43,234 nucleotides of DNA from positions 1-43,234 of the forward strand of contig JADGOG010000007.1 of the NCBI GenBank assembly GCA_017883065.1. Direction: 5' to 3'. A program made the position numbers and the translations under genes. This document shows positions 27,294 to 30,930 of the stretch, one piece after another; position 1 is the stretch's first letter, and each line of letters opens with the position of its first letter. Origin of the DNA: Acidimicrobiales bacterium (lineage in GTDB: Bacteria > Actinomycetota > Acidimicrobiia > Acidimicrobiales > RAAP-2). The notes beneath the pieces are model-generated. The model was not told where the DNA came from. It searched no databases and saw only the letters and a program-made list of their open reading frames with translations.

Positions 27294-27719
27294 ATGACCG
27301 AGAACATACGAACCGACTCCGGCGACCGGGTGGAGCTGAGCGACGAGGAGTGGAAGGCCAAGCTCTCCCCCGAGCGCTACGCGGTACTCCGCCAGAAGGG
27401 GACCGAGCCGGCATGGTCCGGCGAACTGCTCCACGTCGAGGGCAGCGGGATGTTCACCTGTGCCGGCTGTGGGGCGGCCCTGTTCCCGAGCGGCACCAAG
27501 TTCGAGTCCGGTTCCGGATGGCCCAGCTTCTACCGGGCCCTCGACGACGGAGTCATCGAGGAGCATGTCGACAAGAGCTTCGGGATGCGCCGGACGGAGA
27601 TCACCTGCGCCCGCTGCGGCGGGCACCTTGGACACGTGTTCCCCGATGGTCCGGCACCCACCGGCCAGCGCTACTGCGTGAACTCGCTGTCCATCGAGTA
27701 CGAGGCCGACCCGGCCTGA
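27294..27719 (+). CDS. msrB: Peptide-methionine (R)-S-oxide reductase MsrB
   Basis: MFTCAGCGAALFPSGTKFESGSGWPSFYRAL...EITCARCGGHLGHVFPDGPAPTGQRYCVNSLSIEY; CxxC x2 and catalytic RYCVNS. Confidence 0.97.
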   Translation: MTENIRTDSGDRVELSDEEWKAKLSPERYAVLRQKGTEPAWSGELLHVEGSGMFTCAGCGAALFPSGTKFESGSGWPSFYRALDDGVIEEHVDKSFGMRRTEITCARCGGHLGHVFPDGPAPTGQRYCVNSLSIEYEADPA

Positions 27720-28019: not shown

Positions 28020-28454
28020 TCACGCGGTTGCACCCAGCGTGTCGGCCTCCTCCGCGGTGCTCCCTGACTCGACGGTGTCGTCGGGCGTGTGCCGTTCGAT
28101 GCGCTGGACGTCGACGGTGGCGAACCGGAGGCTGGCGCCGACCTCGTCGGCCACGATCTCCACCTTGAAGCGCCGGTCGCCGTCCTCGGTCTCCCAACTG
28201 CGCTGCTCGAGTCGACCCGATACCACCACCCGCATGCCCTTGGTCAGGCTGAGGGCGATGTTCTCGGCCAGGTCACGCCACGTGACCACGTCGAAGAAGG
28301 AGGTCGCTTCCTCCCACTCGTTGGTCTCCCGGTTCTGCCAGCGGCGATTGACCGCGACACCCAACGTGGTGGTGGCCTGCCCGTCGCGGGTGTAGCGGAT
28401 CTCCGGATCGCGGGTCAGATTCCCCACGACGGTGGTAGTGGTTGTCGTGCTCAT
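28020..28454 (-). CDS. ssb: Single-stranded DNA-binding protein (short paralogue)
   Basis: TVVGNLTRDPEIRYTRDGQATTTLGVAVNRRWQNRETNEWEEATSFFDVVTWRDLAENIALSLTKGMRVVVSGRLEQRSWETEDGDRRFKVEIVADEVGASLRFA. Confidence 0.94.
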   Translation of the reverse strand: MSTTTTTTVVGNLTRDPEIRYTRDGQATTTLGVAVNRRWQNRETNEWEEATSFFDVVTWRDLAENIALSLTKGMRVVVSGRLEQRSWETEDGDRRFKVEIVADEVGASLRFATVDVQRIERHTPDDTVESGSTAEEADTLGATA

Positions 28455-28744
28455 GGTGGTTCCCTTTCTCTGGTGCACCGAGGTGCGTCGCCGACCGCCC
28501 CTTCCACGAGGCAGGGTCGGAGCCACCCGGCTCGGGTGACAGCCCCACAGTGGAAAGCGCACCTTGCCCGAGCAGACTCGCCCAGCTGGCCGGACACCTT
28601 GCTGGCCGCCGCCGCTACCACCATCACCGCCGTAGCCCCCGCAATCGCTGCACCGCATCGGGGAGCACCGCTCGACCGACCGGGACTCCCCCTGCACAGT
28701 GCCGGGCGGTCCCGATCGACGGTTGCCCTGGCCTGGTGCGGGCA

Positions 28745-28921
28745 GTGCGACACCGCGGAATTGGGGTCCGCCCTAGACTGAGCGGGGGCGTTCGTGCAGA
28801 CGCCACACAGATCCGCAACCGGCCGCCTGGGCCAACAACGACCGCCCAGGCCGCCTCGAGTGCAGGCCTCGCCATCGGCAGCCTTCGACGAGAAAGCAGG
28901 AACCTTCCATGGACCATCTGA
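28745..28921 (+). other. Possible mini-ORF or relic ending in an encapsulin cargo-loading-peptide-like sequence (GLAIGSLRRES)
   Basis: Frame reads ...RNRPPGPTTTAQAASSAGLAIGSLRRESRNLPWTI*; peptide LAIGSLRR at 28868-28891; stop lies 13 nt inside encapsulin ORF; no strong RBS or start. Confidence 0.35.
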
Positions 28922-29715
28922 TGAGAGAGCTGGCCCCGATCTCGGACGCCGCCTGGGAGCAGATCCAGGAGGAGGCGACCCGGTCCCTCAAGCACTTCTT
29001 GGCTGGCCGCCGTCTGGTCGACTTCACCGGCCCTCTCGGGTGGGACTACTCGGCGGTGGATGTCGGCCGGGTCGACACGCTCAGCCACGGAGCGCTCGGA
29101 GAGGTCGAGGTGGCCCGCCGTCGGGTGGTGCCCCTTCTGGAACTCCGGTCATCGTTCACGCTCGATCGGACCGAGCTGGCCGCAGCCGAGCGCGGAGCCA
29201 CCGATCTCGACCTCGACCCGGTGATCGCCGCCGGACGTGCTGCCGCGCTCGCCGAGGACCACCTGGTGTTCCACGGCTACGAGGAGAGCGGGCTCCCCGG
29301 CATCGTGACCGCCTCTCCGCATGCCAAGGTGGCCATCAGCGACGACTACTCCAACTATCCCCAGCACGTGGCCGCCGCGGTGGCAGCACTTCGGGCAGCC
29401 GACGTGGCCGGGCCGTACGCCATCGCCCTCGGAGCGCGCTGCTACACCGGTGTGACCGAGACCACCGAGCACGGCGGGTATCCGGTGTTCGAACACCTCC
29501 GCCAGATCCTCGGGGGACCGGTGGCATGGGCGCCGGCGGTGGACGGTGCCGTCGTGCTCAGCCAGCGGGGCAGTGACTTCGAGCTGACCATCGGCGAGGA
29601 CTTCGCCATCGGCTACCGCACGTCCGACGCCACCTCGGTCACCCTGTACCTCGAGGAGAGCGCGTCGTTCCGGATCAACACGCCCGAAGCCGCCGTCCAC
29701 CTGGCCTATCTCTAG
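28909..29715 (+). CDS. Family 1 encapsulin nanocompartment shell protein (linocin M18/HK97 fold)
   Basis: MDHLMRELAPISDAAWEQIQEEATRSLKHFLAGRRLVDFTGPLGWDYSAVDVGRVD...VPLLELRSSFTLDRTEL...LVVF-like EDHLVFHGYEESGLPGI...VVLSQRGSDFELTIGEDFAIGY...ASFRINTPEAAVHLAYL. Confidence 0.96.
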   Translation: MDHLMRELAPISDAAWEQIQEEATRSLKHFLAGRRLVDFTGPLGWDYSAVDVGRVDTLSHGALGEVEVARRRVVPLLELRSSFTLDRTELAAAERGATDLDLDPVIAAGRAAALAEDHLVFHGYEESGLPGIVTASPHAKVAISDDYSNYPQHVAAAVAALRAADVAGPYAIALGARCYTGVTETTEHGGYPVFEHLRQILGGPVAWAPAVDGAVVLSQRGSDFELTIGEDFAIGYRTSDATSVTLYLEESASFRINTPEAAVHLAYL

Positions 29716-29740: not shown

Positions 29741-30856
29741 TCACGTCGGCGGAGCCGGCTGGACCTCGACGTCCTTTCGCCGTGCACCGGCGGGGAGGTG
29801 GAGGACCTGGTGCCCGATGTCGGTGAGCACCACGTACACCAGAGCGATGCCGACGAGCCCGAAAGTGGCGATGACCACCAGGTTGGTTCCGATGCCCACG
29901 CCGCCGAAGTAGACGATGCCGCGAGCGGCCGAGGTCCCCGCCCCAGACGGCAGCCACGGACCGACCACCCGCCAGAAGGTGGGGAGCAGCGGCCACGCGT
30001 AGGCACCGCCGGCACTCGGGTTCCCGATCACCACGAAGATGAGGATGCTGATCCCGATCCCGATTGTGCCGGCTACCACCTGGAGCCCCATGGAGAATGC
30101 CCCGGCCCCGAACACCAGCAGGGTTCCGAGCATCCAGAGTCCGAGCACATGGGACGGCAGGGCGTGGAGCCACGGCCCGGCGATGAGCGCCCCGGCCAGA
30201 CCGGTGAACACCGCATAGATGGCGATGGCGGCCAGTCGGACCGTGGCCCGGTTCACGTTGGCCGGCCGTGAACCCGCACTCACTCCGAGGATGGCGGCCA
30301 CCAGGTATCCCCCGACGATCCAACCGATGACCAGGTAGAAGGACGAGAGGCTGTTCTGATCACCGGGAAGTGGCGGACGGATGTCGACCACATCGAGGGC
30401 CCGGTGTTCGGAAGCCTCGACGCGGTCCATCACCAGGGTCATGGCCGTCGAGGCCGACACTCCGCTGGCGCTGGCTTCGAGAAGTCGGTCGGTGGTGGCG
30501 TGGGCGTCCACCACCAGCACGCCGTAGACCGTGCGATCGAGGAGCTTCCTCGTCCCTGCGGCCGTCGAGTCGACGGCCACCGCCTGCAGCGGCATGCCGT
30601 CGATGGCATTCAATCCGGCCACCACCTTGGCCTCGATCGCCGCCGGAGCCACCACGGCCAGGGGCAGCCGGTGCGGGGTCGGATGGTGGAAGGCCCCGAT
30701 GTAGGAGGCGATGAACCCGAGCTGCAGGAGCGCCACCCCGACCACCAGCACCGTGGCCCGCATGGTGACGGCGTCCCTGAACTCGGCAGCCAGGCCCCGG
30801 GGGTGGAGCCGGAGAGGCTCGTCTCCAGCGGTGGGAGGCCCTGGCGCTTCGATCAC
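29741..30856 (-). CDS. Multi-pass membrane protein, DUF3533/YhgE-Pip/ABC-2-like
   Basis: One N-terminal TM (VLVVGVALLQLGFIASYIGAFHHP), extracytoplasmic domain, then several C-terminal TMs; GTG start inferred. Confidence 0.75.
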   Translation of the reverse strand: MIEAPGPPTAGDEPLRLHPRGLAAEFRDAVTMRATVLVVGVALLQLGFIASYIGAFHHPTPHRLPLAVVAPAAIEAKVVAGLNAIDGMPLQAVAVDSTAAGTRKLLDRTVYGVLVVDAHATTDRLLEASASGVSASTAMTLVMDRVEASEHRALDVVDIRPPLPGDQNSLSSFYLVIGWIVGGYLVAAILGVSAGSRPANVNRATVRLAAIAIYAVFTGLAGALIAGPWLHALPSHVLGLWMLGTLLVFGAGAFSMGLQVVAGTIGIGISILIFVVIGNPSAGGAYAWPLLPTFWRVVGPWLPSGAGTSAARGIVYFGGVGIGTNLVVIATFGLVGIALVYVVLTDIGHQVLHLPAGARRKDVEVQPAPPT

Positions 30857-30930
30857 GATGCATGCTCCCTTGGCGCCGGCTGCATCCGCGCGCCGGACGG
30901 CGCGGACCCCGATGGCGGTAGAAATCCCGA

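Follow-up and report, generated by a model that had tools for sequence, protein, structure and literature searches.

A sequence resembling a cargo-loading peptide, directly upstream of the encapsulin gene in the window (the whole 43,234-nucleotide stretch of an Acidimicrobiales genome, G000, that was analysed), is very probably a decaying 3′ remnant of a cargo gene that a deletion removed. A first-pass annotation had offered this reading alongside a targeting-peptide mini-protein and coincidence, and orthologous loci bear it out: they encode an intact cargo that ends in this peptide, placed equally far from the shell. That cargo is a nitrobindin-like protein instead of the DyP, ferritin or hemerythrin that had been guessed. 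The fossil itself is genuine, and its main interest lies in the cargo class to which it points and in the turnover of cargos across the genus. The features of the locus are listed in Table 1.

Table 1. Features of the encapsulin locus in the window
Feature	Position	Strand	Basis or remark
msrB, syntenic neighbour	27294..27719	+	PF01641, TIGR00357
ssb, divergent upstream neighbour	28020..28454	-	PF00436, E = 1.8e-32
Promoter-like -10 element TAGACT (context CCTA[CG]ACTG)	28774..28779	+	Conserved, 135 nt before shell start
Probable relic, 3′ end (last ~33 codons) of deleted nitrobindin-like cargo gene	28805..28908	+	tblastn, blastn
Cargo-loading-peptide codons GLAIGSLRR	28865..28891	+	Inside relic
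Intact shell gene (family 1 encapsulin, 268 aa)	28909..29715	+	PF04454, NF041155

A tag-bearing frame beside a conserved shell gene

The peptide GLAIGSLRRES is encoded at 28865–28897 on the forward strand, just 5′ of the encapsulin gene, in a frame that translates as ...TQIRNRPPGPTTTAQAASSAGLAIGSLRRESRNLPWTI* and stops at 28919–28921. Direct reading agrees with the sequence and frame given in the first-pass annotation, including the stop 13 nt inside the shell ORF. Its remarks on the surroundings also hold: Pfam and NCBIfam profile searches of the frame upstream of the shell returned no domain, and the gene beyond, on the opposite strand, is ssb. The window locus encodes no C-terminally tagged cargo protein, only the relic of ~33 codons.

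The window peptide, GLAIGSLR, conforms to the core of cargo-loading peptides, L-x-I-G-x-L-[RK]. It retains the three hydrophobic residues and the basic residue (L, I, L and R) with which the targeting peptide binds the shell in Klebsiella (PMC10960027). Scored against 29 distinct natural variants taken from related loci, it reaches 22.9 bits, a mid-range value below which 11 of the 29 fall. A degenerate DNA pattern for the peptide has 19 matches in the window genome, counting both strands, from which the probability of a chance match on the same strand in the 50 nt that precede the shell start is ~1.5e-4 (50 × 19 / 6.2e6).

The shell matches the curated family models PF04454 (E = 2.3e-88) and NF041155 (318.5 bits; cutoff 100), and is the only encapsulin in the assembly (3.09 Mb, 235 contigs, 94.9% complete). 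Its pairwise dN/dS against relatives is ~0.2, a value indicating that the shell is under purifying selection and is still selected. Private residues differ little in number between the window shell (22) and that of genome G073 (17). Judged by position, not structure, the published peptide-binding residues R34 and D38 (PMC10960027) are kept in the window shell and D231 is invariant. Downstream of the shell, 29741–30865 on the reverse strand encodes a membrane protein that weakly resembles YhgE/Pip (E = 4.7e-6, under the model cutoff); in G073 an enoyl-CoA-hydratase-like gene takes its place.

Orthologous loci carry an intact cargo gene

The shell is present in 32 of the 151 genomes of the family that we searched. 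The first-pass annotation had suggested that close relatives be searched for a complete cargo gene with this peptide at its end, and four genomes of the genus (G073, G042, G067 and G076) have one: a gene of ~235 codons lies directly 5′ of the shell, as it does in the close outgroups G116 and G018. The cargos in these six genomes end in PPTPNPLA, a linker and SLGIG[SND]LR or a closely similar peptide, the general form being PPTPNPLA...SLGIGSLR.ESR; the junction with the shell start is an ATGA overlap in most of the loci. Most other members of the family that have a shell encode an EncFtn bearing a tag of this type. The window shell pairs with that of G073 in the tree (support 91/79), and the gene order in G073, ssb(-), cargo(+), shell(+), is that of the window plus the cargo. 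The layout around ssb is orthologous at L003 and at L005 (G050); in G050 msrB adjoins ssb and the shell, and ssb lies 5′ of the shell as it lies 5′ of the cargo in G073. The G050 locus has neither cargo nor tag beside the shell. Besides the window shell, those at L005 (G050) and L023/L143 (G074) have no recognisable cargo gene directly upstream.

The 43 nt before the shell start align without gaps to the 3′ end of the intact cargo gene of G042 at 35 of 43 positions, a match reached by none of 200,000 shuffles; the same comparison with G050 gives only 17/43. Matches found by blastn to L003, L004, L006 and L008 continue through the peptide codons and the shell start. When the G073 cargo was searched across the window by tblastn, the best match fell at 28805–28900 (54.5% identity, E = 0.003), aligning window TQIRNRPPGPTTTAQA-ASSAGLAIGSLRRESR with G073 cargo TLIRVGPPTPNPLAQADAGDESLGIGNLRTESR, which makes a modest case for homology of the linker part. 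The view that a GC-rich intergenic stretch merely happens to look like a cargo-loading peptide could appeal to the looseness of the tag pattern, which matches the window genome at 18 other places. Coincidence does not, however, account for the position and register of the peptide, the nucleotide identity to orthologous cargo ends or the linker homology, and the orthologous loci with intact cargo ends exclude it for all practical purposes.

Extent of the deletion

On the upstream side, window 28400–28570 aligns with the ssb-proximal region of G073 (75%). Alignment to the G073 cargo end and shell resumes at 28868, within the tag, and covers 28868–29000. Nothing between 28570 and 28868 is significantly alignable with G073, and remnants of the cargo body sought at 28571–28804 gave an alignment no better than shuffles. 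The conserved CCTA[CG]ACTG element, which we infer to be a promoter, lies 112 nt before the cargo start and 813 nt before the shell in G073; in G050 it precedes the shell by 95 nt. Compared with the 813 nt of G073, the distance from the element to the shell ATG in the window is thus 678 bp shorter.

We propose that the ancestral operon consisted of a promoter, a gene for a nitrobindin-like β-barrel cargo with a C-terminal cargo-loading peptide, and the encapsulin shell gene. A net deletion of ~680 bp took most of the cargo leader and the first ~200 codons, and the last ~33 cargo codons stayed behind in what is probably now an untranslated leader of the shell transcript, with the promoter that once served the cargo probably driving the shell. 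Because the tag codons lie directly against the shell ribosome-binding region, that region is a possible reason for which the DNA was kept. In a second alignment register, the relic and the intact G073 copy each match G042 at 34 of 43 nt. That the relic is no further from G042 than the intact copy is would fit a recent deletion, but also constraint on the DNA, which the shell ribosome-binding region may exert. A deletion shared with G050 is not favoured, as the G050 shell does not join that of G000 in the tree and G050 is tagless. Given the draft state of the assembly, there is a small chance that the cargo has been relocated into a gap or that the locus is misassembled.

The lost cargo as a probable nitrobindin-like protein

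An intact cargo of the relatives matches PF08768, the THAP4-like heme-binding β-barrel family, with E = 2.7e-18, and two others do so with 1.9e-21 and 1.2e-17. The AlphaFold2 model of an intact cargo (pLDDT 81.9) has 3ia8 as its top PDB match in Foldseek (E = 7.2e-8, TM by target 0.80), and all 12 matches under E = 0.001 are nitrobindin/THAP4 proteins, including Arabidopsis nitrobindin, or Rv2717c and Rv0813 of M. tuberculosis. Family assignment and predicted fold together indicate that the cargo is a nitrobindin-like β-barrel, and probably a heme-binding one. His194, located in the last strand and invariant in 15 homologues, is a candidate proximal heme ligand.

Untagged homologues of the cargo in G070, G076, G067, G082 and G085 stop shortly past the NPLA motif, and G067 and G076 each contain one tagged and one untagged nitrobindin-like copy. 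Untagged close homologues are found at L035, L037, L038, L039, L045 and L046. The resolution of a tree of nitrobindin-like proteins was too low to support a single origin of the tagged forms. Among the best 80 shells in GTDB genomes, tagged nitrobindin-like cargo occurs in seven Acidimicrobiaceae MAGs from a single clade and also in an Actinomycetales MAG (L145). In the latter, the tagged cargo (L145:4269-4961) adjoins a more distant shell (51% identity), possibly through independent recruitment or transfer.

Whether the retained tag is translated

The first-pass annotation had also considered a mini-protein of ~58–61 aa, starting at a GTG at 28745 or 28736. By keeping the tag, such a product could occupy or regulate the cargo-binding sites of the shell. 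The frame is indeed open upstream, and the L, I, L and R of its core match shell-binding peptides (PMC10960027). The peptide itself also shows no visible decay; with these residues kept the tag core is still good. Both proposed GTG starts, however, precede the conserved -10 element, and past this element, between 28775 and 28900, the frame offers no ATG, GTG or TTG as a start, only CTG and ATC codons. The codon-position GC of the frame, 0.67/0.69/0.66 over a short stretch with few codons, does not have the gene-like pattern of the neighbouring genes (~0.7/0.5/0.88). No relative has a stand-alone tag peptide; each has either a full tagged cargo or no tag. Were it translated, the relic frame would give a peptide ending in LAIGSLRRESRNLPWTI, with 9 or 10 further residues after LAIGSLRR, so that its end is not at the tag, although a short tail is also present in some intact cargos. 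These observations make such a mini-protein very improbable.

The shell start itself has changed: relatives with the overlap begin ATGAAC and the window shell begins ATGGAC, and with ATGG in place of ATGA the overlapping TGA stop of the cargo is gone. The missing start, the codon composition and the lost stop speak for a relic that is not translated, as far as so short a stretch allows. We likewise give very little credence to the idea that, after loss of the nitrobindin-like cargo, the retained tag yields a short translated peptide, able to block the cargo sites of the shell or to tune the loading of an EncFtn encoded in trans.

Other candidate cargos in the window genome

We found no close homologue of the cargo elsewhere in the G000 assembly (94.9% complete); the nitrobindin that remains there is a 39%-identical, untagged paralogue. 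A DyP cargo was also sought and is absent from the window genome. A scan of G000 and G050 with the tag pattern yielded 37 matches, and inspection of 30 loci revealed no convincing C-terminal tag; two short G000 matches near a stop (L060 and L074) lie in frames not recognised as proteins. The pattern misses diverged tags, among them the tail of the G000 EncFtn, and is so loose that an order-wide scan with it was uninformative.

The G000 EncFtn is encoded by a solitary gene (C79:6910-7263, L082) away from any shell and beside an AlkB-like gene, named from its sequence by eye. Its sister copy in G073 (L084) adjoins the same AlkB-like gene, in trans to the only shell of G073. We found no solitary EncFtn in the other 12 genus members, and a search of the G050 assembly returned neither an EncFtn nor a nitrobindin-like match. 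It is conceivable, and a tentative suggestion at most, that this EncFtn (G000:C79:6910-7263) is the present cargo of the shell, which would then not be empty; this would complement the relic reading and not replace it. The distribution is consistent with such a role: G000 and G073 each combine a single shell with a lone EncFtn at a distance, the cargo in the remainder of the family is usually EncFtn, and the G073 copy ends in a perfect tag, SLGIGDLRV. The G000 tail, by contrast, is the diverged RLDIGRIDE, which scores 7.5 bits, under every natural tag collected, and has Asp in place of the basic residue. We regard the trans-encoded EncFtn, its tag weakened, as a weakly supported candidate for the present cargo.

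Comparison with known encapsulin and nitrobindin systems

The window locus resembles the family 1 encapsulin operons surveyed by Andreas and Giessen (2021; PMC8346489) in shell family, tag motif, gene order and overlap. It differs from them in having no cargo body, and its relatives differ in having a nitrobindin-like cargo. Among the cargo classes that the survey names are DyP, ferritin-like families, IMEF, hemerythrin, bacterioferritin and NIR-HAO; the nitrobindin-like cargo belongs to none of these. In the open-access literature, to which our search was confined, we found no joint mention of encapsulin with nitrobindin, nor of THAP4 in the encapsulin papers listed, and we could not find the nitrobindin-like barrel described there as a family 1 cargo class.

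The EncFtn encapsulins offer a second point of reference: within this bacterial family the cargo is usually EncFtn, which is also common among the surveyed shells and has a tag of the same type. Its fold and chemistry are unlike those of the nitrobindin-like cargo, and in G000 and G073 its gene lies away from the shell. With tagged and untagged nitrobindin-like homologues, shells that no longer have a cargo in cis (G000 and G050) and EncFtn in trans, the genus shows a turnover of cargos that allows one to ask how shells persist and switch cargo.

Nitrobindin/THAP4 proteins (PF08768) share their sequence family and predicted fold with the cargo of the relatives, which differs from them in its additional C-terminal linker and cargo-loading peptide. 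Characterised nitrobindins are heme proteins that scavenge NO and peroxynitrite (PMC10094804), whereas heme binding by the cargo is a prediction. Should the cargo prove both to be loaded and to bind heme, a role for encapsulins in nitrosative-stress chemistry would be likely.
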